Part shown: positions 17,413 to 57,578 of the stretch, in pieces | Position numbering within the stretch: position 1 is the first letter of the stretch | Layout: each line of letters begins with the position of its first letter | Source: Pelagibius sp. Alg239-R121 | Lineage (GTDB): Bacteria; Pseudomonadota; Alphaproteobacteria; Kiloniellales; Kiloniellaceae | Direction of reading: 5' to 3' | Length of the DNA stretch: 64,000 bases | Assembly: GCF_947331435.1 (NCBI RefSeq) | Contig: NZ_CAMZOF010000012.1 | Coordinates: 1 to 64,000 of the forward strand | Notes under the pieces: generated by a model | The model's database searches: none | What the model saw: the letters and a program-made list of their open reading frames with translations, nothing else | Told to the model about the DNA's origin: nothing | Position numbers and translations under genes: made by a program

Positions 17413-17793
17413 CTAAAGCCGTCCGGCCTCTTTCAGCACGGCGTGGGCCGCCTTGAAAGCCGCCAGACCGGCCGGAATGCCCGCGTAAATCGAGACCTGC
17501 TTCAAAGCTTCTTTGATTTCATCGTTGGAAAGGCCGTTATTGATCGCACCGCGCACGTGCAGTTTAAGTTCATCGGTCTTTCCCAGTGCCCCCAACATGC
17601 CGAGGTTCAAGAGGCTCCGATCGCGCCGTGACAGACCTTCTCCACCCCATCCGTCGCCCCAGCAGTAAGTCGTCACCTGCTCCTGGAACGCCATCATAAA
17701 ATCATCGGCACTCTCTAGAGAGCGCTCCACGTACTCGGCTCCCAGAACAGCCTTGCGAATCTCCAGACCCTTCTCAAACATCTCGTCAGCCAT
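17413..17793 (-). CDS. Carboxymuconolactone decarboxylase family protein (PcaC-like)
   Basis: A 126-residue protein that closely follows the 4-carboxymuconolactone decarboxylase pattern: GAEYVERSLESADDFMMAF, then YCWGDGWGGEGLSRRDRSLL and LHVRGAINNGLSNDEIKEAL. PcaC removes CO2 in the protocatechuate branch of the beta-ketoadipate pathway. Here it overlaps the alpha/beta hydrolase gene by 8 bases, as in pcaDC pairs, but other pca genes are missing and the neighbours are RidA and a flavin reductase. The true substrate may therefore be a ring-cleavage product of an N-heterocycle or aromatic compound; this is inference. Confidence 0.85.
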   Translation of the reverse strand: MADEMFEKGLEIRKAVLGAEYVERSLESADDFMMAFQEQVTTYCWGDGWGGEGLSRRDRSLLNLGMLGALGKTDELKLHVRGAINNGLSNDEIKEALKQVSIYAGIPAGLAAFKAAHAVLKEAGRL

Positions 17794-18592
17794 TGGCCAC
17801 TCCCTTCACCCGATCCAAAAAAGACAACAGTACAGTATTTACTTGGCCGGGATCTTCGACCATAGCCATATGCCTGAGGCCAGGCAGAATTTTGATCTGC
17901 GCACCGGAAATCTCTCCGGCAATTGCCTGCGACATCTCCGGTGAGTTCCCGAAATCCTCATCTCCCGTCATGACCAGCGTCGGACAGGAAATGGCCGGAT
18001 CTGGCGCGACCAGCTCGTCGACACCGTCAGCCAGCACCTGATAGATGCTGGGATACACCTGTTTGCTGTTGGCCATCACCCACCGCCGCACGAGTCCGGT
18101 CCTATCTTGATCCGACTTTCTGAAGCCTTCCGTGAACCAGCGGTCCAAGGCAGCCTCGACCGTGGCGGACGGCCCATCCTGCCTCGCCTGCGCGACGCGT
18201 TTAAGGATCGCATCCTGGGCAGCCGCTTTACGCTTGTGCGGCGAGTGCAGGATTCCGAGTGCCGAGACGCGCCCTGGATGATCCATCGCAAAACGCCTGC
18301 AAATCATTCCCCCGAGCGAAAAACCCAGAACGGCACAGGATTCGATATCGTTCTCGTCAAGCAGCTTCAGAAGTTGCGTCGAAAAAAGCGTGAGATCGGG
18401 CGTAGACGGCGGCGTCTGGCTGTCGCCGTGCCCATAAAGATCGTAGGTCAGTACACGATAACTCTGTGCGAGCACCGGAACTTGCCACTGCCACATGGCC
18501 TTATTGAGACCCAGGCCATGAATGAGAACGACGACGGAACCAGAATCTCCATGCCACTCGAAACTCGTACCATCCACCGCCATGAGCGCCAT
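17786..18592 (-). CDS. Alpha/beta hydrolase (PcaD/RutD-like)
   Basis: A hydrolase of about 268 residues resembling 3-oxoadipate enol-lactonase and RutD. The nucleophile elbow is GFSLGG, the acid is in MTGDEDFG and the histidine is in LRHMAMVEDP; HGLGLNKAMW is the oxyanion segment. I use the ATG at 18592, which overlaps the RidA stop (TGATG); a TTG one codon upstream is less likely. It probably opens a lactone or amide ring, or removes a toxic intermediate, in the pathway encoded by this operon. Confidence 0.88.
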   Translation of the reverse strand: MALMAVDGTSFEWHGDSGSVVVLIHGLGLNKAMWQWQVPVLAQSYRVLTYDLYGHGDSQTPPSTPDLTLFSTQLLKLLDENDIESCAVLGFSLGGMICRRFAMDHPGRVSALGILHSPHKRKAAAQDAILKRVAQARQDGPSATVEAALDRWFTEGFRKSDQDRTGLVRRWVMANSKQVYPSIYQVLADGVDELVAPDPAISCPTLVMTGDEDFGNSPEMSQAIAGEISGAQIKILPGLRHMAMVEDPGQVNTVLLSFLDRVKGVANG

Positions 18593-19008
18593 CAAACCTG
18601 TTCCGGCTTCAAGGGTTTGTACGCAACCACTTCGACCTCGACACGTGCATCCACCAACAGGTCGTTGACCACAGCGGACCGGGTTGGAGGCTCGTCCGGA
18701 AAGTACTCGCCATAGACAGCATTGAAACCAGGAAAGTCAGCGCGATCCGTCAACCAAACCATGGCCTTGACCACATCCTCCAGCGCACATCCAGCCAGCG
18801 CCAGGGTTGCTTCGATATCGTCGAGCACGGCACGGGTCTGCTCTTCAATCGTCCCATCGGTCATCGGCACGCCATCCTTGAATGGGACCTGCCCGGTCAG
18901 AAAAACGAAATCACCGGCCCTGATGGCGCGCGATAACGTCAGCGTTCGCCCGCCGATAACAAGGGGTTCGCCGATAACCTGCTTTTTTTGGGCTCGTATG
19001 TCGTTCAT
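18592..19008 (-). CDS. RidA/YjgF family protein (RutC-like)
   Basis: A 138-residue RidA-fold protein. The family deaminates reactive enamines and imines; RutC-type members act on aminoacrylate-like compounds. FLTGQVPFKDGVPMTDGTIE and the C-terminal ARVEVEVVAYKPL strand are typical, and the position of the usual catalytic arginine is occupied in LLVDARVEVE. It is the first gene of a reverse operon and lies across a 218-base divergent region from the aldehyde dehydrogenase. Confidence 0.88.
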   Translation of the reverse strand: MNDIRAQKKQVIGEPLVIGGRTLTLSRAIRAGDFVFLTGQVPFKDGVPMTDGTIEEQTRAVLDDIEATLALAGCALEDVVKAMVWLTDRADFPGFNAVYGEYFPDEPPTRSAVVNDLLVDARVEVEVVAYKPLKPEQV

Positions 19009-19226: not shown

Positions 19227-20711
19227 ATGACGGATCTTGTCCGCTATCAAATGCTCATCAACGGCGAGTGGGTCGATGCAGAAGACGGAAAAAGCTTTGC
19301 CAGCGTGAACCCGGCCACTCAGCAGGCCTGGGCGGACATTCCGGAAGCAACAGCAAACGACGTCGATCGTGCGGTCAAAACAGCTCACCAGGCCTTTTTG
19401 GAGGGCCCTTGGGCAGCCTGCACAGCGACCGAACGCGGTAAATATCTGCGCAGGCTGGCGGACCTGCTTGCCGAAAAATCAGAGGAACTGGGCCGAACTG
19501 AATCCGTCGACACAGGCAAGATGCTGAAAGAGACTCGCTGGCAGGCTAAGTACATCGCTGAGTTCTTCCATTACTACGCCGGCTGTGCCGACAAGATCCA
19601 CGGCGAGACGCTGCCCATTGACAAGCCGGATATGCTGACCTTCACCTCGCGGGAGCCTTTGGGTGTCGTGGCGGCCGTCGTCCCCTGGAATTCCCAGTTG
19701 TTTCTTGTCGCGGTCAAAATCGGCCCAGCCCTCGCTGCGGGCAACACGGTCGTTCTAAAAGCCTCAGAGCATGCGTCCGCCGCGATGCTTGAATTCGGCC
19801 GTTTGATCGAGGCCGCAGGCTTCCCGCCAGGCGTGGTCAATATCGTCACCGGCCACGGTGACCCCTGCGGCAAAGCCCTGACGTCGCATCCGTTGGTGCA
19901 GCGCATCAGCTTTACCGGTGGTCCGGGCGCGGCAAAGCACGTCCTCTACAACTCCGCGGAAAACTTTGCTGAGGTTTCCTTAGAACTCGGCGGAAAGTCG
20001 CCTTTCATCGTTTTCGAAGATGCCAACATTGAAAGCGCAGTGAACGGCTCCATCGCCGGCATCTTCGGCGCGACCGGCCAAAGCTGCGTCGCCGGTTCCC
20101 GCCTCTATCTGCAAGAGAAGATTGCCGACGCCTTCCTTGAGCGCATGGTCGGACTCGCAGGTCAGATCCGGATCGGCGATCCACTCGCCGAAGAAACCCA
20201 GATGGGTCCGCTTTGCACACAAGGACAGATGGACTGTATCGAGCGCGAAGTTGCCTTTGCTCTCGAGGAAGGCGGCAAGCTGCTGTGCGGCGGCAAGCGG
20301 CCGGCAGACCGCAACGATGGACTATTCTATGAACCTACGATCATCGAGTGCCAAAGTCAGAATCAGCGCATCGTCGATACAGAACTGTTCGGTCCGGTCC
20401 TCAGCGTACAGCGCTTCAAAGACGAGGCTGAAGTGATCCGCCTCGCGAACGATACCAAACATGGACTTGCAGCCGGAATTTTCACGACTGACAGTGCCCG
20501 CTCCATGCGCGTGGCCAAGGCCGTGCGCGCGGGCATCGTCTGGGTCAACACCTACCGGGTCGTCTCACCCATCGCAGAATTCGGCGGTTTCAAGGGCTCC
20601 GGTTACGGACGGGAATCCGGCTTTCAGGCCATGTACGACTATACGCGGCCGAAGACCGTTTGGGTCAATACTTCCAGCGAACCCATGGCAAACCCCTTCG
20701 TGATGCGTTAG
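19227..20711 (+). CDS. NAD(P)+-dependent aldehyde dehydrogenase
   Basis: A 494-residue aldehyde dehydrogenase. The catalytic glutamate is in EVSLELGGKSP and the catalytic cysteine is in GATGQSCVAGSR. The cofactor-binding PWNSQL segment and the C-terminal FGGFKGSGYGRE segment are present. Length is standard. It oxidises an aldehyde to an acid; its place opposite the RidA operon, with a shared control region, suggests the aldehyde is an intermediate of that pathway. It is convergent with the GFA-family gene, with 15 bases between. Confidence 0.93.
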   Translation: MTDLVRYQMLINGEWVDAEDGKSFASVNPATQQAWADIPEATANDVDRAVKTAHQAFLEGPWAACTATERGKYLRRLADLLAEKSEELGRTESVDTGKMLKETRWQAKYIAEFFHYYAGCADKIHGETLPIDKPDMLTFTSREPLGVVAAVVPWNSQLFLVAVKIGPALAAGNTVVLKASEHASAAMLEFGRLIEAAGFPPGVVNIVTGHGDPCGKALTSHPLVQRISFTGGPGAAKHVLYNSAENFAEVSLELGGKSPFIVFEDANIESAVNGSIAGIFGATGQSCVAGSRLYLQEKIADAFLERMVGLAGQIRIGDPLAEETQMGPLCTQGQMDCIEREVAFALEEGGKLLCGGKRPADRNDGLFYEPTIIECQSQNQRIVDTELFGPVLSVQRFKDEAEVIRLANDTKHGLAAGIFTTDSARSMRVAKAVRAGIVWVNTYRVVSPIAEFGGFKGSGYGRESGFQAMYDYTRPKTVWVNTSSEPMANPFVMR

Positions 20712-21303: not shown

Positions 21304-23403
21304 TTACGACGGTTCATCCCACAGGTGCATCAGAACATCAACTGCACAAACCCTATCCGGCAGCACAAACAGTGGGTTGATTTCCAACTCGGCGATCCGA
21401 CAGGACTGCAATTGTACGTATTTCGCGAGCCTCGACAGATCGCCTGCCAACCGCGTTACATCAGTAGCTGGCTGTCCGCGAAACCCGTTGAGGAGGCGCG
21501 ACACCTTAAGCCGGCAAAGAGCATTGAATACATCCTGCTCACTCGACGGTAACAGCAGGGTCACCGCGTCACCGACAAGCTCAACGAGCACGCCGCCGCT
21601 CGCCAAGGTCATAGCAAGACCGAATTGGGCATCGCTGCGGATGCTAACCAAGAGTTCGGCAATGCTTCCCTCGACCATCTGCTCGACCAAAAAACGATCG
21701 CTGACGGCCTCCGGCTTGCCGTTCATCACGTCCCGGCTCATCTCCTCGAGGGCACTCTCCAGAGCCGATGCCGAACACAGATTAAGCCGGACCGCTCCGA
21801 CGTCCGTTTTATGCGCCAATTGCGGGCTGACCATTTTCAGCGCAACCGGATAGCCAATCTCGCTTGCGGCGCTTGCAGCGTCTCCAGGCACCACACAGCG
21901 ACCGTTGGGAATCGGGAAATTACCCGCCTTCAGCAATGACTTGCCGGACCATTCGTCGAGCAGAAACGTTTGCTCGTTCTTGCAGGCAGACAGCAGCGGT
22001 TCAGGCTCTTGTTTCAGGATTTCCGTGCGGCGTTTTCCGTACCAGGCGGCAACCTTAATTGCATTCAGAGCCTCATGGATACCCTGCAGAGGCGCGATCC
22101 CCTCTCGCACCAAAAAGTCGCGTGTTTCCAAGTCCATGTTTTCCGGCAGACTGCTGCAAACGGCCGCCGGCACTCCCGCCTCTTTTACTGCGGCGATAAA
22201 GGCTCTTGTGTCGTTGAGGTAAAGCGGCTTGGTTTCATCAAGTCCCGGAAAGGGGAAATCCTGCACAATGACTGCAGCATCACAGTCATCCTGGCAAGCC
22301 GTCCTGAACACCGGAAGGACGCGCTCGAACACACCCCAGATCGGCGTGGTGTAATCGAGAGGATTGGATACTGTCGCGATATCCGGTAATTGGGTCTTCA
22401 AAATCGCCGCCGTTGCCTGCTCCGGCTGGGGAAACTTCAATCCGATCGTTTCTCCGTAGTCGGCCAGCATCGTCGCGCCACCGCCCGAGCAGGTGAAGCC
22501 AAGCAACCGGTCACTCTTCGGGACACCCGAAATGGCGAGGAACTTCAGTGTTTCCAGCATCTGCGCAGGATTGTGAACCCGGATGATTCCCAGTCTGTCG
22601 AACAGCGCCTGATAGAGATCGTCCGCCCCGGACAAGGATCCGGTATGGCTGACCGTCAATCGAGCACCAACCTCTGAGCTTCCCGTTTTCAAGGCGATGA
22701 GCGGCTTACCAAGCCGAAGTGCCTTCATGGCGGCATCGACAAAGCGCCCGATATCCCGCAAACCTTCGATATGAAGCCCAATGGCGCGCACTTCGTCTTG
22801 CTCACAGAGTACGTCGACGAAATCTTCCAGCTGCAGAACAGCCTGATTACCGGCTGAAATCATATGAGTGAATGGCACGGAGCGTTGGCTCATGATCAGA
22901 TCAGAAGAGATCATTCCGCTTTGGGTGATAACTGCGGCGCCGTATCCCGGGCAAGAGCCACCATGTGCAAAGGGCCAGAGTGCAACCTGATCCAGATAGT
23001 TGATCATGCCATAACAATTCGGCCCGATCAGCGCCATGTCTCCCGCCGCCTCGATCAGGGCCTTCTGGGCGCTCCGCCCGTCTTCGCCGGCTTCAGCAAA
23101 GCCGGCCGTGTAGCAAACAACACCGCCCGCGCCAAGGCGCCGCAAATCGGCGATCACCTCGACTGCGCCGGCGACTGGGATTGCCAGGAACACCGCATCT
23201 GGCGGTTCGGGCAGATCCAGGACAGACGCAAAACACGGGAAACCGCCAAGAGTTTCGCGTTTCGGATTAACCGGCCAGATAGCCCCTGAGTACCCGATCC
23301 TGCCGCATTCCATAATGGCAGTGGCCGCATCTCGTCCACCAACGACGGCGACGTGCCGCGGTTTCAGAAGTCGCTGCAGGTTCTGCCGTTGCTTCGGTGT
23401 CAC
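21304..23403 (-). CDS. NDP-forming acyl-CoA synthetase, probable gamma-butyrobetainyl-CoA synthetase
   Basis: A 699-residue single-chain ADP-forming acyl-CoA ligase. The order is an N-terminal CoA-binding Rossmann domain (LLKPRHVAVVGG), a succinyl-CoA-ligase-like domain with the phosphorylated histidine at residue 253 in SHTGSLSG, and a C-terminal ATP-grasp domain from about residue 470 (ALKMVSPQLAHKTDVGAVRL). It overlaps the acyl-CoA dehydrogenase gene by 4 bases. In this context it would activate gamma-butyrobetaine or crotonobetaine to the CoA thioester; the family call is firm, the substrate is inferred. Confidence 0.86.
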   Translation of the reverse strand: MTPKQRQNLQRLLKPRHVAVVGGRDAATAIMECGRIGYSGAIWPVNPKRETLGGFPCFASVLDLPEPPDAVFLAIPVAGAVEVIADLRRLGAGGVVCYTAGFAEAGEDGRSAQKALIEAAGDMALIGPNCYGMINYLDQVALWPFAHGGSCPGYGAAVITQSGMISSDLIMSQRSVPFTHMISAGNQAVLQLEDFVDVLCEQDEVRAIGLHIEGLRDIGRFVDAAMKALRLGKPLIALKTGSSEVGARLTVSHTGSLSGADDLYQALFDRLGIIRVHNPAQMLETLKFLAISGVPKSDRLLGFTCSGGGATMLADYGETIGLKFPQPEQATAAILKTQLPDIATVSNPLDYTTPIWGVFERVLPVFRTACQDDCDAAVIVQDFPFPGLDETKPLYLNDTRAFIAAVKEAGVPAAVCSSLPENMDLETRDFLVREGIAPLQGIHEALNAIKVAAWYGKRRTEILKQEPEPLLSACKNEQTFLLDEWSGKSLLKAGNFPIPNGRCVVPGDAASAASEIGYPVALKMVSPQLAHKTDVGAVRLNLCSASALESALEEMSRDVMNGKPEAVSDRFLVEQMVEGSIAELLVSIRSDAQFGLAMTLASGGVLVELVGDAVTLLLPSSEQDVFNALCRLKVSRLLNGFRGQPATDVTRLAGDLSRLAKYVQLQSCRIAELEINPLFVLPDRVCAVDVLMHLWDEPS

Positions 23404-24560
23404 GCGCCAAGCGGCCTTAAGATGGAGCGGGTGATGATGTGGCGCTGGATCTCAGATGTACCGTCCCAGATCCGCTCAAGCCGTGAATCACGCCAGAGGC
23501 GTTGGATCGGCAGTTCCTCCATCAAACCCATGCCGCCATAGATCTGCACGGCATCATCAGCCACCCTGTTCAGCATCTCCGAGCAGTAGACCTTGACCAT
23601 CGCCGCATCGGCATCCTGCATGATGCCCTGATCCGCCTTGGCAACCGCGTCCATCACCAGGAGGTCTGCAGTTTTCAATCCGATGGTCATGTCAGCGAGA
23701 CGAAAGCCCGTCGCCTGAAACTGGCCGATGGGCTTGCCAAACTGCTTTCTGGTCGCCGCCCAGTCGATCGCCAGGTCCCGAATACGTTCAGCCTTTCCGC
23801 AGCAGGTTGCGCCAACCCAGACCCGTCCCATACCCAGCCATTTGCCGGAAAGCTCCAGACCACGCCCCTCTTCACCCAGGATCTGATCGGGCCCGAGCCG
23901 AACATCCGAAAAACTGAGCGCAAAATTCTGATAACCTCGATAGCTGACACACTTGTTGCCCTCGCGAATATCAAAGCCGGGCAAACCGACATCGACTAAG
24001 AAGGCCGTCACCCGCTTACGCGGACCACGCGATGTTTCATCGATACCCGTCGCCGCAAAGACAATCGCAAAATCCGGCATGCAGGGCCCGGAGATGAAGT
24101 GTTTCGATCCGTTCAGGATCCAATCATCTCCATCACGCCTCGCATTGGTTTTCATACCCATAACGTCAGAACCCGCTTCCGGTTCAGTCAGCGCGAAAAG
24201 CTCGCGCTTTTCCGCCCGCACGCAGGGCATCAGGTAGCGATCGACCTGATCACCCGCGCAGGCCATCAGCAGTTCTGTCGGACGGCCGATCCAGGAATGC
24301 AGTGCATGAGAGGTCTTGCCATATTCGCGTTCCATGATCGCCATAGCCGTATAGTCGAGCCCGCCACCACCGACGGCCTCGGGCAAATTGGCCGCATAGA
24401 GGCCGGTCTCGATGGCGCGTTTCTCGATCTGTTTTCCCAGCTCGGGCGGAACTTCGCCGTTACGGTCCACCTCTTCCTCGTGAGGGTAGATTTCCGCCTC
24501 CATAAAGGCGCGCACCGTTTGCAGCAAAAGCTCATTTTCGTGGCTTAGCGTGATGTCCAT
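23400..24560 (-). CDS. Acyl-CoA dehydrogenase, probable gamma-butyrobetainyl-CoA dehydrogenase
   Basis: A 386-residue FAD enzyme that introduces a 2,3 double bond in an acyl-CoA. FALTEPEAGSDVMGMKT and the VQIYGGMGLMEELPIQR segment are standard. At the usual catalytic glutamate of MCAD-type enzymes (YEGT) this protein has aspartate, in RIWDGTSEIQ. Its neighbours are an acyl-CoA ligase, a betaine-type ABC transporter and BKACE, and a CaiD hydratase is nearby, so gamma-butyrobetainyl-CoA to crotonobetainyl-CoA is the likely reaction. Start ATG 24560 follows the permease stop by 16 bases. Confidence 0.88.
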   Translation of the reverse strand: MDITLSHENELLLQTVRAFMEAEIYPHEEEVDRNGEVPPELGKQIEKRAIETGLYAANLPEAVGGGGLDYTAMAIMEREYGKTSHALHSWIGRPTELLMACAGDQVDRYLMPCVRAEKRELFALTEPEAGSDVMGMKTNARRDGDDWILNGSKHFISGPCMPDFAIVFAATGIDETSRGPRKRVTAFLVDVGLPGFDIREGNKCVSYRGYQNFALSFSDVRLGPDQILGEEGRGLELSGKWLGMGRVWVGATCCGKAERIRDLAIDWAATRKQFGKPIGQFQATGFRLADMTIGLKTADLLVMDAVAKADQGIMQDADAAMVKVYCSEMLNRVADDAVQIYGGMGLMEELPIQRLWRDSRLERIWDGTSEIQRHIITRSILRPLGA

Positions 24561-24576
24561 AACAGACTCCGAAAAC

Positions 24577-25389
24577 TCAGGTTTCTTTGGTTTCAGCCGC
24601 AGGCGCCCGCCCGCGGGAGAGCAGCACCGACAGCAGCAGCGCAGTGAGAGTCACCACGATCAGCACCACTGCGGCGGCGGCCACGGTGGGGTCGGTGTTC
24701 TCGCGGATGCCGTCCCACATGCGCCGCGGCAAGGTGAAGACCCGGAACTTCGCGATAAAGAGAGTGACCACGATTTCGTCCCAAGAAAGGATGAAGGCAA
24801 ATACGGCGCCGGCCAGAATGCCTGGTCTGATTGAAGGAAAAATCACCCGGCGTAAGGTGGTTGGCAGAGCCGCACCAAGATTGCGCGACGCCTGCTCCAG
24901 CTTGGGATCAAAATTCGCCAGGGCGGCCGACACGGTGATCAGCACCATGGGCGCAGCCAGGATCGCATGCGCGATGATCATACCCAGGTAACTGTCCAGT
25001 AAACCCAGTTTGACCCAGACCCGATAGAAGGCCATGGCCGAAATAATCGGCGGGATAATCAACGGCAACAGCAGTAACGCCCGGATGGCCTCGGAAAAGC
25101 GGGTCGAGATCCGCCACAGGCCGATCGCGCAGAGCGTGCCCAGAACCGTCGCCAGGATGGCGGCACCACACGCGATAACCAGGCTTTGGAAGATACTTGA
25201 GATCCATTCGTCGCTGCTGAAGAGATTGGCGTAATGGCGCAGCGACATACTGTCTTTCGGCACGGAAAGATAGCGTTCCGGAGTCAAGGACACGGGAAGT
25301 GCGATCAGGGCAGGCAAGACCAAAAACAAAAGCACCAGCCAGGCCCCTGCCCTGCCGAAACACCAACCCATGGAAGACCTGCCGTTCAT
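24577..25389 (-). CDS. ABC transporter permease (PotC type)
   Basis: A membrane subunit of about 270 residues with six hydrophobic segments. The EAA loop contacting the ATPase is seen in EQASRNLGAALPTTLRRVIFP. The start ATG 25389 overlaps the upstream permease stop (ATGA); an in-frame extension of 36 codons runs inside that gene and is rejected. It is paired with the PotB-type permease, SBP and ATPase of the same operon, a spermidine/putrescine-type importer that probably carries a quaternary amine. Confidence 0.91.
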   Translation of the reverse strand: MNGRSSMGWCFGRAGAWLVLLFLVLPALIALPVSLTPERYLSVPKDSMSLRHYANLFSSDEWISSIFQSLVIACGAAILATVLGTLCAIGLWRISTRFSEAIRALLLLPLIIPPIISAMAFYRVWVKLGLLDSYLGMIIAHAILAAPMVLITVSAALANFDPKLEQASRNLGAALPTTLRRVIFPSIRPGILAGAVFAFILSWDEIVVTLFIAKFRVFTLPRRMWDGIRENTDPTVAAAAVVLIVVTLTALLLSVLLSRGRAPAAETKET

Positions 25390-26216
25390 GCCTTGGCTCC
25401 GAAGACTTCGCTCAGTTTCATGAAGCGCGAAAGGGTGAACATCAGCGCCAGGACACCTCCGAGCATTAGGGTGGCCAGCATGGAGGCCGTACCCCACTGC
25501 AGCGTCACCAGAACCTGCACGGAGATGTATTCGGCGGCCATCAGAACCCGGCCGCCGCCTAATATCGCAGGTGTCACGTAAAAGCCGAGGGAGATAACAA
25601 AGACCAGGATCGAAGCAGCAAAGATGCCGGGCATCGTCAGCGGAAGGTAGATCCGTCGGAAAGTCACCAAAGGACCTGCCCCCAGACTGCGCGATGCAGA
25701 CATCACACGGCCATCGAGCCCCTGCATATTGGCCAGCAGCGGCAGGACGGCATAGGGAATCATGTAGTGGATCATGCCGATCAAAACGCCCAGTTCGTTT
25801 CGGACGAAAGTAATCGGTTCATCAGTAAGCCCACTTGAAATCAGAGCCCCGTTTAGCAACCCGTTCCGTCCCAACAGAGTCAACCAGGCGAAGGCCCGGA
25901 CCAGGACAGAAACCCAGAACGAGACCAGCACGAAAGTCAGCATCCAGGATCGTTCGCCGCTTGCCAGATGAGCCATCATGTAGGCGACGAGATAGCCCGC
26001 CAGAACCGCACCGAAGGTCGTCAAAAGACAAACTCGCAGCGTTGTCCACAAAATCCGCGCCAACGACGAGCTCGCGAACAGCTTTTCGTAATTCTGCAAG
26101 CCCGCTTGCGGCTCCGTGACGCTGAGCCAGAGAATGTTGATCACCGGCCAGGCATAGAGCGCCATTACGAGCAGGAGCAGCGGCGCCACCAGCAGCCAGT
26201 AATTGTTCAGTCTCAT
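25386..26216 (-). CDS. ABC transporter permease (PotB type)
   Basis: A membrane subunit of about 276 residues with six hydrophobic segments and an EAA loop in SASRSLGAGPLVTFRRIYLP. I prefer ATG 26216 (MRLNNYWLLV), which has GGGAA upstream and starts right before the first membrane helix; ATG 26237 seven codons earlier is possible but has no ribosome-binding site. It is preceded on the strand by the SBP gene and a hairpin at 26262-26301. Confidence 0.9.
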   Translation of the reverse strand: MRLNNYWLLVAPLLLLVMALYAWPVINILWLSVTEPQAGLQNYEKLFASSSLARILWTTLRVCLLTTFGAVLAGYLVAYMMAHLASGERSWMLTFVLVSFWVSVLVRAFAWLTLLGRNGLLNGALISSGLTDEPITFVRNELGVLIGMIHYMIPYAVLPLLANMQGLDGRVMSASRSLGAGPLVTFRRIYLPLTMPGIFAASILVFVISLGFYVTPAILGGGRVLMAAEYISVQVLVTLQWGTASMLATLMLGGVLALMFTLSRFMKLSEVFGAKA

Positions 26217-26261
26217 GTGTGCGGTTCCCGCAGGCATGGAAAAAGATGGTTCGGAATGACG

Positions 26262-26301
26262 GGCTGCCCGCCCAACAGCAGAGGCTTTCAGGCGGGCAGC
26301 C
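26262..26301 (-). promoter_or_regulatory. Intra-operon hairpin after the ABC binding-protein gene
   Basis: GGCTGCCCGCC (26262-26272) and GGCGGGCAGCC (26291-26301) form a perfect 11-base-pair stem with an 18-base loop, between the substrate-binding protein stop and the permease start. No T tract follows. It resembles the hairpins downstream of both dctP genes and probably protects the binding-protein mRNA or lowers read-through. Confidence 0.65.
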
Positions 26302-26308
26302 TCGTCAA

Positions 26309-27418
26309 TCAGCCGATGGCATCCAGATACCTGTTCAAGGTGTCACCGCCATTTTCTGCCCACCAGGCCGGGTCATTGAAGACGACCTTGTCGATGTTCT
26401 CTGCCGAGGTCACCGCAAAGCGCTTCAGATCGTCGGGTATCATCGCGAAGGCTTCCGGATTGGCCGGCGTCATCCCATGACAGGACAGCATGTTAATCTG
26501 GCGCTCCGGAGTCTGGCAGGACGCCAGGAACTTCATAACATTCTCGCGGCCTGCGGGATTGCCCTTGGGCACAATGTAGGCGCCCGGCATGGCGATCGCT
26601 TCATTCATGACCAGCTTGAAACGTCCCTTGGTGTCTGCCTCGACAGCCTTTGCCCGATTGATCCAGACCATGCCCATAGTCACTTCACCGTCAATGATCA
26701 TCTGCGAGGCTTCGGCTCCCGATCCCCAATAGATTGAGTCGTCTTTGATCGACTGAATCTTGCTGATCGCCCGGTCGACATCGCAAGGATAGAGGTCCGC
26801 CTTGGCCACGCCATCGGCCAGCAAAGCCCCTTCAATCGCGCCGTTCGCCCATTTGTAGAGCGAACGCTTGCCGGCAAATTTATTTGTATCGAAGAAGTCG
26901 GCCCAGGTGCTCGGCGGGTTATCTCCGAACTTCTCACTGTCATACATGAAGCCGTAACCGTAAAAGATGGCCGAGAAGCCGTGGTCCCAGGCAAAACCCT
27001 CCAAGACTTTTTTCTTGTCGACCACGGAATAATCGATGGCTTCAAGATGTCCCGACTTGCCCAGGGCAATAGCATCGAAAGCATCGGCGTCGGCAACATC
27101 GGCCGTGATATTGCCGGAATCGACCATCTCCTTCACCTTGCCCTGCAGTGGGCCGGAGGTATCGACCTTAAAGCCCAGGCCACTATCGGTGGAAAAGGGA
27201 GACCCGAAGGAATCGGTGTGGCACTTCACGGCATCGCCGCCCCAATTCCAGAACACGATCTCATCGGCAGCGGCCTGTGCGTCGCCAATAGAAACAGCGT
27301 AGGTGGCAACACCCGCCACGGCACAAAGACCCAGAAAATCCCGCCGATCCATACGGCCCGCTTTGAAGTCTTCAGCGCTCTTGGTCAAAAGTTCTTTAAA
27401 AAAGTTCTTGTCTTGCAT
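26309..27418 (-). CDS. ABC transporter substrate-binding protein (PotD type)
   Basis: A periplasmic binding protein of about 369 residues in the spermidine/putrescine-like family 1/8 group. The start ATG 27418 has a strong AAGGAGG site four to five bases upstream; a 48-codon in-frame extension before it has no support. The N-terminus has about 20 polar residues and then RMDRRDFLGL with a hydrophobic run ending DAQA-AADEI, a twin-arginine signal with an unusually long n-region. DEIVFWNWGG begins the mature protein. The ligand is probably gamma-butyrobetaine, carnitine or a related betaine; this is inferred from the operon. Confidence 0.89.
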   Translation of the reverse strand: MQDKNFFKELLTKSAEDFKAGRMDRRDFLGLCAVAGVATYAVSIGDAQAAADEIVFWNWGGDAVKCHTDSFGSPFSTDSGLGFKVDTSGPLQGKVKEMVDSGNITADVADADAFDAIALGKSGHLEAIDYSVVDKKKVLEGFAWDHGFSAIFYGYGFMYDSEKFGDNPPSTWADFFDTNKFAGKRSLYKWANGAIEGALLADGVAKADLYPCDVDRAISKIQSIKDDSIYWGSGAEASQMIIDGEVTMGMVWINRAKAVEADTKGRFKLVMNEAIAMPGAYIVPKGNPAGRENVMKFLASCQTPERQINMLSCHGMTPANPEAFAMIPDDLKRFAVTSAENIDKVVFNDPAWWAENGGDTLNRYLDAIG

Positions 27419-27485
27419 CTTTTCCTCCTTCCGCCCCCCTGTGGAGCTCTCGTGAATAAGCGCGGTTTTCTGAATTTTTGATCCG

Positions 27486-28592
27486 CTAGCTTTCAGTACC
27501 TTCCGAAACCAGGACCGTGGCATCTTCCTGCCACGATAAATCGACCGTTTGTCCTGTTTCAAAGCGATGCGGGTTGCGCCACGCGCCGACTTCGGCGGTG
27601 ACAGATCCGAAGCCCGCGACTTCGGTTGTGACGGTGAAATTCGATCCGTAGTAAGTCAGGCTGGAGACTGTGCCTTGCAGTCCGTTCGACAACGGGGCAT
27701 CGCCCAACGGCGCCACGTCTATCTTCTCCGGGCGCAGAGCAAGCGTGACCAGTTCCCCGACACCGGGCGCGGCTCCATTGCATCTGTGATGAACGTCCGC
27801 TCCCGCGACGACACAGGACAGGGTCTGCCCATTGGCGGCGGTGACCGAGCCTCGCAGGAAATTGCTTTTCCCCAGGAAATTGGCCGCAAACACCGTCTCC
27901 GGCCGTTCATAGAGATCATTGGGCGCGCCGACCTGAACGACCTTGCCATGATTCATAATCACCACACGGTCGGACATGGAGAGGGCTTCTTCCTGATCGT
28001 GCGTCACATAGATGAAGGTCGCGCCCACCCGTCGATGAAGGTCCTTAAGCTGTTCCTGAACGTCCGTTCGAAGCTTCTTATCGAGTGCGCCAAGTGGTTC
28101 ATCCAACAACAGTATCTGTGGATTGAAGCTGAGGGCCCGTGCCAGGGCGACCCGTTGTTGCTGACCGCCGGACAGTTGCCGGGGAAGCCGATCGCTGAAC
28201 TCTGTCAACTGCACTAGGTCCAGCATTTCCTGAACGCGCGACTGTATCTGCGCCCGTGGCTGTTTTCGCACCTCCAAAGGATAAGCGATGTTCTGCCAGA
28301 CGCTCATATGGGGAAAGAGCGCATAGCCCTGAAACACCATACCGAAGTTTCGTTTTTCGGCCGGCAGTCGGATGATCGATTGACCGTCGAGTGCGATATC
28401 CCCGTCACTGGGATCCAGAAAACCAGCGATCATCATCAACAGGCTGGTTTTCCCCGAACCCGATGGCCCGAGCAGGGTCAGGAACTCTCCCCGGCGAACG
28501 TCAAGACAGACATCTGTCACAGCCTCGAATGAGCCGAAGCGTTTTGACAGGCCTTTCAGTGTGAGGCCGTCTGACGAGGCGGGATCCGGCAT
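27486..28592 (-). CDS. ABC transporter ATP-binding protein (PotA type)
   Basis: A 368-residue ATPase. Walker A is GPSGSGKTS at residues 42-50, the signature is LSGGQQQRVALARAL and Walker B is ILLLDEPLGALD; a C-terminal TOBE-like regulatory domain covers about residues 280-360. It begins 6 bases after the BKACE stop and energises the two permeases and the binding protein that follow. The gene order ATPase, SBP, permease, permease is common for opine and betaine-type importers. Confidence 0.93.
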   Translation of the reverse strand: MPDPASSDGLTLKGLSKRFGSFEAVTDVCLDVRRGEFLTLLGPSGSGKTSLLMMIAGFLDPSDGDIALDGQSIIRLPAEKRNFGMVFQGYALFPHMSVWQNIAYPLEVRKQPRAQIQSRVQEMLDLVQLTEFSDRLPRQLSGGQQQRVALARALSFNPQILLLDEPLGALDKKLRTDVQEQLKDLHRRVGATFIYVTHDQEEALSMSDRVVIMNHGKVVQVGAPNDLYERPETVFAANFLGKSNFLRGSVTAANGQTLSCVVAGADVHHRCNGAAPGVGELVTLALRPEKIDVAPLGDAPLSNGLQGTVSSLTYYGSNFTVTTEVAGFGSVTAEVGAWRNPHRFETGQTVDLSWQEDATVLVSEGTES

Positions 28593-28598
28593 TGTCGG

Positions 28599-29483
28599 TC
28601 AGGCTCCGCGCAGGTTGAGTTTTTGACGCGCCTCTGCCGGCGAAACCGCCCGTGCGCCCAGGCGTTCGATAATCTCTACGGCTCGTTCGACAAGCTGACC
28701 GTTGGATGCAAGGACACCACGGTCGAGGTAGAGGTTGTCCTCCAAGCCGACGCGTACATTCCCGCCCATAACCACCGCAGCAGCCGCCATCGGCATCTGC
28801 ATTCGGGAGATCCCGAAACCACCCCATGCGGCATTGAGCGGCAGTGCATCCTTCATGGCCTTCATGGTGTCGACGCTTTGATCCGCACCCCAGGGAATGC
28901 CCAGACAGATCTGAAACATCGGCGGTTCGGCAATCAGGCCCTCCGCGATCATCTGCTTTGCAAAACGGACGTGGCCGAGCTCGAAGACTTCCAGTTCCGG
29001 CTTGACGCCCCATTCCTTGGTCAGTGCCGCCATCTTGCGAAGAGTCGGCGGGGTCGAGATGTAGATTTCGTCGCCATCGCCGAAGTTCAAAGTCCCGCAG
29101 TCAAGACTGCAGATTTCGGGCAGCAGCGCCTCGACATGCGCCAGTCGTTCCAGCGGCCCAATCATGTCGGTTCCAGGTCCGGGCATGGCAGGATTTTCAC
29201 CGTCTGGAACCCAGTCTCCCCCCATGCCGGCGGTCAGGTTGATCACCACATCGGTGTCGCTGTCGCGCACCCGATCAACCACCTCTTTGAAGAGTTCCGG
29301 GTCACGCGAACCTCGACCGGTTTCCGGATCACGGACGTGTATGTGAGCGATAGCCGCACCGGCTTTTGCAGCTTCGATCGCCGCCTCGGCGATTGCCTCT
29401 GGCGTCACCGGCACTCCCGGATGTCGTTTTGTCGTATCGCCGGCTCCGGTCACCGCGCAACTCACTATGACGTCGTAATTCAA
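28599..29483 (-). CDS. cdhC: BKACE family enzyme, dehydrocarnitine cleavage (CdhC-like)
   Basis: A beta-keto acid cleavage enzyme (DUF849) of about 294 residues. It condenses a 3-keto acid with acetyl-CoA; the CdhC type turns 3-dehydrocarnitine and acetyl-CoA into betainyl-CoA and acetoacetate. Zinc ligands are His47 and His49 in HIHVRD. The stretches [22 protein letters not shown] and [19 protein letters not shown] agree with my memory of Pseudomonas CdhC. I place the start at TTG 29483, six or so bases after GGGAGGA; the longer open frame upstream crosses the control region and is rejected. It is divergent from the GlxA/AraC regulator, as in the Pseudomonas carnitine locus. Confidence 0.88.
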
Positions 29484-29533
29484 GATGGTTCCTCCCGTTC
29501 TTCTGCTTATTTTGCGGTCAGTTTTTTTGATTT

Positions 29534-29551
29534 TTGTCGATTTCTCGACAA
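29534..29551. promoter_or_regulatory. TTGTCGATTTCTCGACAA palindrome, cdhC / regulator promoter
   Basis: A perfect 18-base palindrome (7-base arms, 4-base spacer) in the 126-base spacer between cdhC and the divergent AraC-type regulator. A copy with 15 of 18 matches is at 33742-33759, upstream of the second carnitine operon, and the half-site TCGACA is repeated at 19 kb. It is the likely operator of this regulon. Confidence 0.7.
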
Positions 29552-29609
29552 TGAAGCGCATTATTCGCCGTAGATTGAGAGTGCCTGGTGATTTGAGGAG
29601 GAGGCAGAT

Positions 29610-30677
29610 ATGGCGACGGATATGACGTCCTTTGCCGGTCGTGAGTTTTCGAAAATCGCGTTCGTGCTTATTCCGCGGTTCAACATGATGACCTTGATGA
29701 CCACCATCGAGCCGATGCGGATCGCCAACTATCTGTCGCCGCAATCCCTCTTCGAATGGACGTATCTGTCGTTCGAAGGCGAGGAAATCAGTGCCAACAA
29801 CGGGATGCGGGTCCGCTGCGAAACCCCGCACAACGACTCGAAATTCGACATTGTTTTCGTGGTCGGCAGTTGGGGATGCGAACGCTATGTCAGTCCGAGT
29901 GTGATCAACTGGATCCGTCGACAGGAACGAAAGGGTTCCGTCATCTGTGCCTTCGAGCTGGGTGTCTATGTGCTTGCGCAGGCCGGTTTGCTATCCGGCC
30001 GATTGGCAACAACCCACTGGTCCTGCATGGCAGGCTTCGCCGAGCAGTTCCCCATGATCGATTTGCGCGAGCAACTCTTCACTATCGACCGGAATCTGAT
30101 CACCTGCGCCGGCGGCACGACCGGCATCGATCTCATGCTGCACCTGATCGCGACCTGCCATAATGAGCAGCTGGCATCGGAGGTTGCCGATCAGATCATG
30201 CATCATCCTGTCAGAAAGGGGGACGCGGTTCAGCGGCATACGCTGGGCGGCACGACCGACATGATCCACCCCGATGTGGCAGCGGCGGTCAAGATCATCG
30301 AAGACAACGTTTCCAGCCCCTTAAGCGTGCCCGAGGTCGCCCAGGAGATCGGACTTTCGCAACGGCAGCTTGAACGTTACTTCAAACGCTACATGGGCTG
30401 CTCTGTTGTTCAGTTCAGCCAGTTGATGCGTTTGCAGTACGCCCGCGTCCTGCTGACCACGACACGCCTTTCCATCCGCGAGGTCTCGGTCGCCAGCGGC
30501 TTCAACTCCATGTCGCACTTCTCGCATGCTTTCCTGAAGTGCTTCGGCAAGAAACCGAGTCAGTACCGTCAGGCCTGGCCAGACAACGAAACCGCGCCGA
30601 CCTGGCGCGGCACGGTCTATTCCCTGGTCGAAGCCTCGCGACTGAACGCGCAGCGCAAAGCACAGGTGATCAAGTAA
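29610..30677 (+). CDS. GlxA family AraC-type regulator (CdhR-like)
   Basis: A 355-residue regulator. The first 190 or so residues form a DJ-1/PfpI-like amidotransferase-fold domain ([20 protein letters not shown]); residues about 225-325 hold two AraC helix-turn-helix motifs ([20 protein letters not shown] and [20 protein letters not shown]). Pseudomonas carnitine and betaine regulators CdhR and GbdR have this architecture. GAGGAGG precedes the ATG. Position between the two halves of the carnitine cluster makes it their likely activator. Confidence 0.9.
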
Positions 30678-30714
30678 TCAAGCATGATACGGCGAGGGTA
30701 TGCACTCCAGCGTA

Positions 30715-31668
30715 TCAGGCTCTGGCCGCACGCACGCCTTTCAACACGGCGACGATGCCGCGGTCTCGTTCGGCAGCAAGCTCCTCGAAGCGGCGTCCGG
30801 CAGCCATTTCATCGCAACCATAAACCATACGATCGCGTAGCGCCTTGGTCAGCTCGGGCGCTTCGAGGCGGGTCCAGGGGAGTTTCAGTGCAGGGCCGAA
30901 CTGATCCAGATTTGTCGCCATACCGCCTTCCCCGCAGGCGATATGAAAGGCCATGCACTGGCCGAACATCGCCATACGTGGAGCCGGGCCATTGATCAGA
31001 GCCGTATCGATCTGCTCTGCAGTCGCCTCGCCGTTGGCGACCATATGCAGTGCCTCGCGCCATAAGGCCTCCTGCAGGCGGGTCGCAATGAATCCGGGAA
31101 TTTCCTTGTTGAGCACAAGTGGCGCCTTACCGGCAACCTGATAGAAATCCCGCGCCCAGGAAATCGCGTCTCGCGAGGTCTTGTCACCGCCGACGATTTC
31201 GACGAGAGGTAAGAGATAAGGCGGGTTGAAAGGATGCCCGACCACCGTTCTTTCCGGCGTCGCACAGTCCGCCTGTATTTCCGTCATCGTCAATCCCGAG
31301 GTGGATGACGAAATCACGACAGTTTCCGGCACAAGGTTGCCCAGTTGCTTGTAGAGGGCCTGTTTCAGGCCAAGATTCTCAGGTGCGCTTTCCTGAACGA
31401 ACTCGGCCATTTCGACGGCCTGCGCCAAATCGGAAGTAATGGTAAGACGATCACGCGACGCCCCCTTTTCCAATCCAAGTGCTTCCAGGCTGATCCAGGC
31501 CGTATCGACAATTTCACGAAAGGCATCCGCTTCGGCAGGATCATGCAGGTAGCTGACGACGTCGTAGCCACGGGCTAGAAAATGCGCAGTCCAGCCGCCA
31601 CCGATTGGCCCGCCGCCGATGCTGGCGATGCGGGTAATCGCCTCAGGGTTTTTAAAGACCACGGTCAA
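30715..31668 (-). CDS. cdhA: L-carnitine dehydrogenase (3-hydroxyacyl-CoA dehydrogenase fold)
   Basis: A 317-residue NAD+-dependent enzyme oxidising L-carnitine to 3-dehydrocarnitine. The NAD motif GGGPIG is at residues 18-23. EFVQESAPENL, ISSSTSGL, VGHPFNPPYLLPLVEIVGG, the KEIPGFIATRLQEALWREAL stretch and FGPALKLPWTRLEAPELT follow the carnitine dehydrogenase subfamily as I remember it, closer than fatty-acid HADs. It lacks the C-terminal thioesterase fusion found in some rhizobial versions. The start is TTG 31668, overlapping the caiD stop; GTG two codons later is possible. It is convergent with the regulator. Confidence 0.88.
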   Translation of the reverse strand: MTVVFKNPEAITRIASIGGGPIGGGWTAHFLARGYDVVSYLHDPAEADAFREIVDTAWISLEALGLEKGASRDRLTITSDLAQAVEMAEFVQESAPENLGLKQALYKQLGNLVPETVVISSSTSGLTMTEIQADCATPERTVVGHPFNPPYLLPLVEIVGGDKTSRDAISWARDFYQVAGKAPLVLNKEIPGFIATRLQEALWREALHMVANGEATAEQIDTALINGPAPRMAMFGQCMAFHIACGEGGMATNLDQFGPALKLPWTRLEAPELTKALRDRMVYGCDEMAAGRRFEELAAERDRGIVAVLKGVRAARA

Positions 31669-32468
31669 CGCCCTTTGAATACGGGCTGTCGCTTTTCCAC
31701 AAAGGCCCGGACTCCCTCTTCCGCATCTTCCGACTTCAGCATGGCACGGTAGGTCGGCAAATCGCCCGTCCGCATAGTCTCGAAAGCCCCTTCAAGCGGC
31801 ACGCATTCAATCGAGCGCAGGACCTCTTTGACGGTTTGCAGAGCGAGTGGCGCCGCTGCTGCAAGCTGCGCGGCCCAGGCGCGTGCTTCGTCCATCAGCT
31901 TATCGTAGCTGACGACCTTATTAATCAGCCCGTAGTGTGCTGCCTCCGACGCGGTCATGCGCCGCCCCATCAGGAACATTTCCATGGCAATGTTATAGGG
32001 GATACGGCGCGGCAGGCGTTGAATTGCACCGGCGTCAGGCACCATTCCCAGCGGCATTTCCGGTAAACCGAATTCAACGTGGTCCGCGGCGATCAGCAGG
32101 TCACACCCCATAGCCAACTCAAATCCGCCGCCGATCACCAGTCCGTTCAGAGCCGCAATGACCGGCTTGTTCAGATTCCAGTTTTCGGTCAAGCCGGCAA
32201 ATCCGCCGTCGCCGTAGTCGGCATCTTCCCACCAGTTGTCGAGTTTGGTGTCCCCCGAATTAAGCGCCTTGAGATCCCAGCCTGCAGAAAAGATCTTGCT
32301 TCCCTCAGCCGTCAGGATGCCAACCCGCAGTTCCGGATCGTCACGAAGCTGGGCGAAGGCGGCACCCAGCTCCTGGCTCATCTTGATGTCGATGGCATTG
32401 ACCTTGGGCTTGTTGAGTTTGACCTCGAGAACGTGACCGTTGCGGACGACTTCGACAAAGTCAGTCAC
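31665..32468 (-). CDS. caiD: Crotonobetainyl-CoA hydratase (CaiD)
   Basis: A 267-residue enoyl-CoA hydratase. It matches the E. coli CaiD pattern as I recall it: FSAGWDLKALN, then DADYGDGGFAGLTENWNL and KPVIAALNGLVIGGGFELA, VPDAGAIQRLP, GRRMTASEA, and a C-terminus RQPVFKGR. CaiD hydrates crotonobetainyl-CoA to L-carnitinyl-CoA. The start is GTG 32468 with GGGGAG upstream. It overlaps cdhA by 4 bases, an arrangement that joins hydration directly to carnitine oxidation. A thioesterase or CoA transferase to free carnitine is not seen in the window. Confidence 0.9.
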   Translation of the reverse strand: MTDFVEVVRNGHVLEVKLNKPKVNAIDIKMSQELGAAFAQLRDDPELRVGILTAEGSKIFSAGWDLKALNSGDTKLDNWWEDADYGDGGFAGLTENWNLNKPVIAALNGLVIGGGFELAMGCDLLIAADHVEFGLPEMPLGMVPDAGAIQRLPRRIPYNIAMEMFLMGRRMTASEAAHYGLINKVVSYDKLMDEARAWAAQLAAAAPLALQTVKEVLRSIECVPLEGAFETMRTGDLPTYRAMLKSEDAEEGVRAFVEKRQPVFKGR

Positions 32469-32509
32469 AGGTTTTCTCCCCTATTATTGCTTATCTAAAC
32501 GCTTGGCTT

Positions 32510-33547
32510 TTATGAAAATTCCGGGATGACCTCTTTACAGAAGAGTTCCAGGGATCGCTTTTGTTCCTCGAGCCCCAGGCCCATACTCGCATAGTAAATG
32601 AACTCATCCACGCCGAGGGCCTCATAGAGTTTCAGCTTGGAAATGACTTCATCCGGTGTCCCGAATATCAAATTCTCATGCAGCATCTCGGGATCATATT
32701 CGGCCCGGTTCTCCAACTCTGAAAACTCAACAGTCTTGGGGAAACCGTTCTCGACGTCTCCCAAGTTCTTGAACAGGTTTTCAAACTGTCCGAGCTGACG
32801 CTGTGCGGCATGGATCGGCACGCTGCGTTCGCTCTGGGTATCGTAGAGCGCGGTATGGCGCATGATCGCGAAAACCGGCCGCGGACATCCGGGGTTATTT
32901 GTCACGGCTTCATCGAGGCGTTCTTTATAGAGCTCGACTTCGCTCATGGGGCGGGTCAACGGCCAGGACATGATGTTGCAGTTGTTCTTAACCGAATAGT
33001 CGAAGGTGATCGGTGCCCGCGCAGCGACCCAGATCGGCGGATGGGGTTTCTGTAGCGGTTTCGGGACCGAAGTTGATTTCGGAAAGGACCAAAATTCGCC
33101 CTCGTGTTCGTAGTCGCCAGCCCAAAGCGCCTTCAAGGCCGGCAGCATTTCCTGCATGTAGCGGTAAGCATCCGACTGTTTAAGGCCAGGTGCCATGCGA
33201 TCGAATTCACGCTGATAAGCGCCTGAGCCAATTCCGAATTCCAGACGGCCACCGCTGATCAGATCGGTAAAAGCGGCTTCGCCCGCCAGATTGATCGGAT
33301 GCCAGTAAGCCGCGACCGCCACCGCGGTGCCCAGGCGGATCCTGTTTGTGTGCGTCGCCCACCAGGTGAGGATCTGAAAGGGATTGGGGGCAATCGTCAT
33401 TTCCAGCGCATGATGCTCTGCGGCCCAGACAATGTTGAAACCGCCTTCATCGGCCATCTGCACCATGTCGAGCGTGTGCCGGGACACATCGCGCATGTCG
33501 CGGGTTTCATCCATGCGCTCAAGATTAATCGCCAATTGAAATTTCAT
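32510..33547 (-). CDS. LLM class flavin-dependent monooxygenase
   Basis: A 345-residue bacterial-luciferase-like TIM-barrel protein that uses reduced flavin from a separate reductase. VWAAEHHALEMTIAPNPFQI, RIRLGTAVAVAAYWHPINLA and GGRLEFGIGSGAYQREFDRM are class signatures. It is the first gene of the LLM-caiD-cdhA operon, with GGAGG ahead of the ATG. No flavin reductase is adjacent; the only one in the window is at 16.4 kb. The substrate is unknown; a quaternary amine or a ring N-compound that feeds this pathway is possible. Confidence 0.9.
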   Translation of the reverse strand: MKFQLAINLERMDETRDMRDVSRHTLDMVQMADEGGFNIVWAAEHHALEMTIAPNPFQILTWWATHTNRIRLGTAVAVAAYWHPINLAGEAAFTDLISGGRLEFGIGSGAYQREFDRMAPGLKQSDAYRYMQEMLPALKALWAGDYEHEGEFWSFPKSTSVPKPLQKPHPPIWVAARAPITFDYSVKNNCNIMSWPLTRPMSEVELYKERLDEAVTNNPGCPRPVFAIMRHTALYDTQSERSVPIHAAQRQLGQFENLFKNLGDVENGFPKTVEFSELENRAEYDPEMLHENLIFGTPDEVISKLKLYEALGVDEFIYYASMGLGLEEQKRSLELFCKEVIPEFS

Positions 33548-33576
33548 GTCCGGCCTCCATAACGGCAGAGTGTTCA

Positions 33577-33686
33577 GAGTCTGGTCGTGTTCACGCAGTC
33601 GGTGAAAACTCGAACCAGCCTCTTCATCCTGTTGTTAGAGGGCGATTCACGATCCTTGCCGTTGCCGTCAAGAACGATCGCACTCA
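33577..33686 (+). repeat. Mosaic palindromic repeat, copy C
   Basis: Same order of blocks as copy B at 37096-37206: GAGTCTG, then GAACCAGCCTCTTC, then GTTAGAGGGCGATTCACG, then GTCAAGAACGATCGCACTC. Its hairpins are more decayed than those of copy B. It lies between the LLM gene start and the TCGACA site at 33742, inside the leader of that operon. Confidence 0.78.
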
Positions 33687-33741
33687 AGTGCCGCAACTTT
33701 TGGCTAGAAATCGACGAACTTCTAGCGTCCGTTCGCACAAA

Positions 33742-33759
33742 TTATCGATTTTTCGACAG
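33742..33759. promoter_or_regulatory. TTATCGATTTTTCGACAG site upstream of the LLM-caiD-cdhA operon
   Basis: It matches 15 of 18 bases of the perfect palindrome at 29534-29551. It lies about 195 bases before the LLM start, beyond repeat copy C. The match suggests a common regulator for both carnitine operons. Confidence 0.6.
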
Positions 33760-54294: not shown

Positions 54295-54296
54295 GC

Positions 54297-56663: not shown

Positions 56664-56676
56664 GGAGGAAATATCA

Positions 56677-57468: not shown

Positions 57469-57490
57469 CGGAGCCTCATGGGCTAACAAG

Positions 57491-57523: not shown

Positions 57524-57578
57524 GATCTAATCGCCTTCACCTTCAAAGCCCCCGATTACCAAGGATTAACCGCGTTCC

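Follow-up and report, generated by a model that had tools for sequence, protein, structure and literature searches.

Which compound is degraded by a carnitine-type gene cluster in a genome that already encodes such enzymes elsewhere? This question is raised by positions 21304-33547 of the DNA analyzed here (the window: a 64,000-nt stretch of Pelagibius sp. Alg239-R121, contig NZ_CAMZOF010000012.1, positions 1-64,000). An earlier note had read the cluster as a pathway from gamma-butyrobetaine to betainyl-CoA. As a claim about the gamma-butyrobetaine pathway of this genome, this is unsupported, because standard-type enzymes are found on contigs C1 and C5 of the 8.0 Mb, 48-contig assembly and the window enzymes fall into separate clades. 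The window was instead shown to hold a second, paralogous set, distinct from the C1/C5 set, most clearly for the dehydrogenase and the acyl-CoA dehydrogenase (ACAD) and less firmly for the hydratase and the ligase. The cluster probably serves the uptake and CoA-dependent beta-oxidation of a betaine acid with a carnitine skeleton, the likeliest candidate being gamma-butyrobetaine or an onium compound very close to it. Its most economical description is a second, divergent carnitine-type betaine pathway. A literature search found no description of this gene set, although most subscription papers were beyond its reach.

The two sets could be told apart within the genome itself. On C1, a fused dehydrogenase-thioesterase (C1:1502519-1503985) scores 681 bits, over the cut-off of 592 for the L-carnitine dehydrogenase model NF005716, and adjoins a BKACE gene (C1:1504040-1504906). 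A standard-type ACAD-ligase-hydratase set is located near C5:343-347 kb and is also found in a congener (L171, L172). Each of the three congeners searched has one dehydrogenase match at E <= 1e-60, which is 43-44% identical and lies within a fused gene. In trees from short searches, with SH-aLRT (Shimodaira-Hasegawa-like approximate likelihood ratio test) support only and labels preset from dehydrogenase similarity, the window-type sequences form clades of 16 rows for the dehydrogenase (support 100), 10 rows for the ACAD (support 100), and 14 rows for the hydratase (support 93). For the ligase, 11 of 12 window-type rows share one clade (support 100), with L006 placed elsewhere. Both sets also occur in six further genomes (G138, G360, and G441-G444), as standard-type loci L173-L178 and window-type loci L072, L074, L001, L002, L003, and L005 with L179; no ACAD was found in the stretch read of L001 and L002. 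Two more dehydrogenase-BKACE pairs, 34-40% alike to those of the window, were noticed in the window genome at C1:1446475-1449175 (L022) and C7:120701-121833 (L023), the latter with a short BKACE match and an internal stop.

The genes of the window set and its surroundings are as follows, with model scores in bits.

21304..23403, minus strand: ADP-forming acyl-CoA ligase, proposed betaine:CoA ligase, GTG start (PF13549, PF13607, PF13380)
23400..24560, minus strand: ACAD (PF00441, PF02770, PF02771; crotonobetainyl-CoA dehydrogenase model, 175 under 540)
24577..25389, minus strand: PotC-type permease, ATG at 25389, longest frame to 25497
25386..26237, minus strand: PotB-type permease
26309..27418, minus strand: PotD-type substrate-binding protein, ATG at 27418, longest frame to 27562 (PF13416)
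27486..28592, minus strand: PotA-type ATPase (TIGR01187, 373 over 356)
28599..29483, minus strand: BKACE, TTG start behind a GGAGG-like site (PF05853, 334, gathering score 24.8)
29610..30677, plus strand: AraC/DJ-1 regulator of the GbdR/CdhR type (PF12833, PF01965; GbdR model, 268 under 480)
30715..31668, minus strand: L-carnitine-dehydrogenase-like enzyme without a thioesterase domain, TTG start (PF02737, PF00725; NF005471, 308 under 414)
31665..32468, minus strand: CaiD-like enoyl-CoA hydratase, GTG start (PF00378; best NCBIfam model CaiD, NF002936, 315 under 500)
32510..33547, minus strand: luciferase-like flavin monooxygenase (LLM), included through co-occurrence across genomes (PF00296, Bac_luciferase, 169)
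19227..20711, plus strand: betaine-aldehyde-type aldehyde dehydrogenase, just outside the range (TIGR01804, 491 under 669)
18592..19008, minus strand: RidA-family protein, just outside the range (PF01042)
17786..18595, minus strand: alpha/beta hydrolase, just outside the range (PF00561)
16387..17361, minus strand: flavin reductase, possible LLM partner, just outside the range (PF01613, 139)

Open frames and domain matches placed at family level every gene that had been listed before, namely the ligase, ACAD, CaiD-type hydratase, carnitine dehydrogenase, BKACE, PotABCD importer, and CdhR-like regulator. The LLM gene, which starts at 33547, the last position of the range given earlier, was not named in that note; nor were the aldehyde dehydrogenase, RidA, and hydrolase genes. 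In transcription order, a first minus-strand block runs from the LLM (33547-32510) through the hydratase (32468-31665) to the carnitine-dehydrogenase-like gene (31668-30715). A second runs from BKACE (29483-28599) through the PotA-, PotD-, PotB-, and PotC-type importer genes, which span 24577-28592, to the ACAD and the ligase, and the plus-strand regulator gene (29610-30677) separates the two blocks. The ligase and ACAD genes overlap by 4 bases, as do the dehydrogenase and hydratase genes; together with short gaps, this suggests that the genes are organized as operons. A promoter scan of 29300-34200 was uninformative, with 0 sigma-70-like sites against 2.4 expected in shuffles. The clustering exceeds chance, as these families are also found side by side elsewhere, in other genomes.

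The proposed chemistry draws on homologous operons. In other genomes of the order, the dehydrogenase-thioesterase fusion lies in one operon with BKACE, ACAD, an ADP-forming ligase, and a CaiD-like hydratase. In locus L143, the sole fused enzyme outside the window genome that was scored against the carnitine models, the fusion passes both cut-offs (601 over 592 and 429 over 414). Among 19 fused loci examined, 10 contained the ligase, ACAD, and hydratase, although 7 of these 10 come from one genus and are not independent. One more, on a short contig, had the ligase and ACAD, two had the ACAD and hydratase, one had the ACAD only, and five had none of the three; in further fused loci all three were present in 6 of 6. 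The recurrence of these operons indicates that their genes fit a conversion of gamma-butyrobetaine to glycine betaine by CoA-dependent beta-oxidation. The window brings together BKACE, dehydrogenase, ACAD, ADP-forming ligase, and hydratase as L143 does. The order of steps put forward in the earlier note (CoA activation, dehydrogenation, hydration, 3-oxidation, and cleavage by BKACE) is thus backed by these homologous operons and by the score of the L143 fusion.

Based on enzyme families and gene context, a pathway can be proposed for the window set. The betaine would be taken up by the PotABCD-type importer and converted to its CoA ester by the ADP-forming ligase. The ACAD would introduce a 2,3 double bond, to which the CaiD-like hydratase would add water. 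CoA could then be removed by a thioesterase acting in trans (the C1 fusion) or by the ligase running in reverse, after which the carnitine-dehydrogenase-like enzyme would oxidize the 3-hydroxyl. BKACE and acetyl-CoA would finally give acetoacetate and betainyl-CoA or its analogue. Upstream of this core, the LLM with its flavin reductase, the aldehyde dehydrogenase, RidA, and the hydrolase would probably, at a guess, convert a precursor through an aldehyde to the acid that enters the core; aldehyde formation by the LLM is the simplest guess, given how frequently an aldehyde dehydrogenase is found with it. Besides the homologous operons, the proposed pathway is favored by the BKACE and ligase comparisons given below and by a choline/betaine-type permease gene (265 under 363) near the window-type locus L074.

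Several observations weigh against this reading. BKACE, ADP-forming ligase, and LLM can be named with confidence as families; the names carnitine dehydrogenase, CaiD, crotonobetainyl-CoA dehydrogenase, and GbdR hold at family level only. The window dehydrogenase, hydratase, ACAD, and regulator all miss their specific NCBIfam cut-offs, the dehydrogenase doing so for both L-carnitine dehydrogenase models (265 against 592 for NF005716). The CaiD cut-off is strict, as the hydratase of the standard operon L143 also falls under it with 378. The nearest solved relatives of the PotD-type protein bind, by title, gamma-aminobutyric acid (GABA) or polyamine-like ligands, and include a GABA sensor (177-187 bits). 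Moreover, the transporter type is not constant between loci. The LLM gene also occurs away from the core: 16 of 18 further LLM loci had no core gene of at least 50% identity in the stretch read, the exceptions being L130 with a BKACE and L131 with a piece of CaiD. In addition, with standard-type enzymes present elsewhere in the genome, there is no need for the window set to act on the same acid.

A further difficulty is the release of CoA. The thioesterase that marks a standard operon, fused or adjacent to the dehydrogenase, was missing from the window, as had been noticed before: the fused-domain family has no match there, and the 15 other window-type loci likewise yielded none next to the dehydrogenase (0 of 16 in all, some on short contigs). 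The genome-wide search suggested at that time did locate one, fused to the dehydrogenase on C1 and not in the window. Absence is not unique to the window-type clade, as none was seen in L068, L069, L070, L078, and L079 either, and in L065, L066, and L067, which branch just outside this clade, the thioesterase is a separate neighboring gene. A Fisher test on this feature was left unused, since selecting the fused group by length makes the test circular for that group. Among the 15 genomes with a window-type set, a fused enzyme able to supply the thioesterase in trans is encoded elsewhere in 7. No fused enzyme was seen in the other 8, two of which (G029 and G030) are about 70% complete, and this too counts against the proposed pathway; in 6 of the 8, more distant stand-alone relatives of the thioesterase domain were found (best 32-37% identical). 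A family of beta-lactamase-type serine hydrolases was seen to recur near the core (L003:20346-20927, L071:4554-5801, and L073:11270-12448, with a Pfam check for L073 only); these could be esterases or thioesterases.

These counts bear first on a narrower form of the earlier proposal, in which the window set is redundant, a gamma-butyrobetaine/carnitine pathway under separate regulation that relies on the C1-fusion thioesterase in trans. Its probability is judged to fall somewhat short of even. The 7 of 15 genomes with a fused enzyme argue for it, as does BKACE. The window BKACE is 62% identical to the one beside the C1 fusion and 27-39% to other paralogues, and it contains the HIH and VRVGLED motifs, of which HIH...E is presumably the metal site. 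Only 1 of 75 columns conserved in both groups differs between window-type and standard-type BKACE, in a comparison from which nine intermediate or misplaced loci were dropped before counting (L065, L066, L067, L070, L078, L079, L080, L082, and L006). With fewer sequences two group-specific residues had been found, and one was left with the larger set; the BKACE tree does not cleanly split the two sets either. Such near-invariance favors the same keto acid. However, the presence of both sets in six further genomes is hard to square with one substrate, and the separate clades, the link to the LLM, and the 8 genomes in which no fused enzyme was seen stand against redundancy as well.

In the second alternative, the window pathway runs in parallel to the standard one but takes another onium acid, which the LLM monooxygenase and the aldehyde dehydrogenase would produce from a precursor. 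It is considered plausible, though on balance not expected. Evidence for it includes the association of the LLM with the window-type dehydrogenase. In a class sample of 385 genomes, the dehydrogenase was detected in 9 (E <= 1e-100), the LLM in 22 (E <= 1e-90), and both in 8 (hypergeometric p 2.5e-10, or p 1.7e-8 if G006 is left out, its LLM being just 42% identical). Of these 9 genomes, G006 and G207 lie outside the window-type clade, and those within it have the LLM in 7 of 7, compared with 22 of 385 overall (p 7e-10), with 4 of the 7 coming from one family and the counts uncorrected for ancestry. In the order sample, the LLM was present in 4 of 4 clade genomes compared with 11 of 61. At the level of loci, 6 of 16 window-type loci contain it, compared with none of the 19 fused loci (Fisher p 0.005). 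The occurrence of both sets within one genome, the LLM link, and a difference at ligase position 395 (Trp in the standard type, Tyr in the window type) together favor a different keto acid. On the other side, the LLM has no known substrate, BKACE hardly differs, and just 4 of 101 shared conserved ligase columns differ between the sets. Whether gamma-butyrobetaine itself or an analogue is the substrate of the proposed betaine pathway is therefore judged about even. As a tentative generalization, some Alphaproteobacteria may have, in addition to the standard gamma-butyrobetaine/carnitine pathway, a parallel BKACE pathway whose onium acid is a different one and would be produced by a two-component LLM monooxygenase and a betaine-aldehyde-type dehydrogenase. 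This pathway would need no dedicated thioesterase, since the ligase would return CoA or the BKACE product would be used as a CoA ester.

The neighbors of the LLM were followed across loci. Aldehyde dehydrogenase relatives (72-81% identical) adjoin window-type genes in L005, L073, L074, L075, and L076, and RidA relatives (73-77% identical) were found in L073, L074, and L076. Hydrolase relatives occur in L005 and L073, and a flavin reductase relative in L005. The 18 further LLM loci have an aldehyde dehydrogenase relative in 10 and a hydrolase in 15. Some of these loci contain an AA_synth protein, a CMD protein, or a thiamine-dependent enzyme (best model sulfoacetaldehyde acetyltransferase, 420 under 620). 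The 16 loci without a core gene include a second LLM copy (82% identical) in the window genome, at C1:362805-363836 (L122). It lacks the carnitine-type core but is accompanied by genes for an aldehyde dehydrogenase, a hydrolase, a relative of the thiamine-dependent enzyme, and an AA_synth-like protein.

It is unlikely that the acid lacks an onium group altogether, for example as an acid that is aminated or stems from an N-heterocycle and that the LLM would open. The LLM, flavin reductase, aldehyde dehydrogenase, hydrolase, and RidA resemble a ring- or C-N-opening set. A xanthine-dehydrogenase-type molybdenum hydroxylase also lies beside the ligase at L002:14027-17705 and L006:3108-6733 (families checked in L002, one subunit in L006), with a candidate at L001:14082-17673 assigned by gene sizes and similarity only. 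Opposed to this are BKACE and a gene order that match carnitine operons, and a regulator of the GbdR type. Among specific candidates, a Rut-like pyrimidine pathway was rejected, as the RutC (54 under 169), RutD (85 under 238), and RutF (90 under 255) models fall far short of their cut-offs and RutA does not occur among the families listed for the LLM (25 of 31). Trigonelline-like ring opening, with its pattern of LLM, flavin reductase, aldehyde dehydrogenase, and hydrolase, found no usable comparison in the literature, and nothing was found to support homarine or gonyol, both of which were considered.

The ligase provides the last alternative. The acyl-CoA ligase reported earlier is present and can now be specified as ADP-forming and related to DddX, a lyase of dimethylsulfoniopropionate (DMSP); the family thereby links betaine activation to DMSP cleavage. 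In the sections of the DddX study consulted, docking and mutants indicate Trp391 and Phe435 as sulfonium contacts and Glu432 as the base (PMC8163506). In a gapped part of the alignment, the window ligase has Tyr351 one column before Trp391, Tyr395 at Phe435, and Lys392 at Glu432, so that aromatic residues stand at or beside the onium contacts; the phosphohistidine motif is shared as well. The catalytic Glu432 is not kept in this stretch, which is not conserved, and lyase activity is not expected. These residues would fit an onium-acid ligase that does not cleave its acid. DMSP degradation by the cluster, with the ligase acting as a lyase like DddX, is very improbable: full-length similarity to DddX (232 bits) speaks for it, but 4-hydroxybutyrate-CoA ligase, with DddX the best relative among solved structures, scores as high (236 bits), and Lys392 is aligned to the base. 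One open frame in L005 (3629-5335), near aldehyde dehydrogenase and LLM genes, joins a class III CoA-transferase domain (CoA_transf_3) to a flavin reductase domain. Replacement of the ligase by this CoA-transferase was considered and dropped, the ligase being encoded on a different contig of that genome (L179).

Comparison with known systems places the proposed betaine pathway among related routes. The caiX-cdhCAB-hocS genes of Pseudomonas aeruginosa and the dual-function dehydrogenase system of Sinorhizobium meliloti, as far as the consulted sections describe them, comprise carnitine dehydrogenase, BKACE, and betainyl-CoA hydrolysis, and share with the window the 3-oxidation of a carnitine skeleton, cleavage by BKACE, and a GATase1-AraC regulator (PMC5806209, PMC12482172). 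The window differs by its ligase, ACAD, hydratase, and LLM module, its Pot-type importer, and its lack of a thioesterase. A CoA-dependent, fatty-acid-like gamma-butyrobetaine route has already been described: in the available part of that report, the Rhizobium-like industrial strain HK4 converts gamma-butyrobetaine to carnitine by a route like fatty acid degradation, with carnitine dehydrogenase downstream (PMC2131755). Its likeness to the proposed route is by description, no HK4 sequence having been compared. The cai operon of Escherichia coli (CaiC ligase, CaiA, CaiB, and CaiD) shares the CoA-ester chemistry of gamma-butyrobetaine, crotonobetaine, and carnitine, and CaiD is the best NCBIfam model of the window hydratase. 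However, in the excerpts seen that operon is reductive and anaerobic (PMC2131755, PMC12482172), whereas the window set has an ADP-forming ligase and BKACE as its last enzyme. A SAR11 region likewise has gamma-butyrobetaine-related genes with carnitine dehydrogenase and BKACE but, in the portion of the source consulted, a gamma-butyrobetaine dioxygenase in place of the ligase, ACAD, and hydratase (PMC12421898).

The comparison draws a line between the standard gamma-butyrobetaine/carnitine operon, whose ligase is ADP-forming, and a parallel set to which annotation would give the same name. If the latter were labeled a carnitine pathway, a distinct route for quaternary or other onium compounds could go unnoticed. 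Because one genome has both sets, deletions can compare them directly.

Some observations concern other parts of the window. The GFA protein at 20727-21218 was dropped as a member of the system, having no relative among the compared loci. A taurine-type substrate-binding protein (141 under 304 bits) is encoded at 14259-15251, upstream of the flavin reductase. Judged by eye on its translations, 53674-62509 looks like an aerobic CO-dehydrogenase-type cluster with an AYRGAGR motif, and an open frame at 4007-5440, also read by eye, has a sulfatase-like signature (CVPAR) and is possibly of the choline-sulfatase type.

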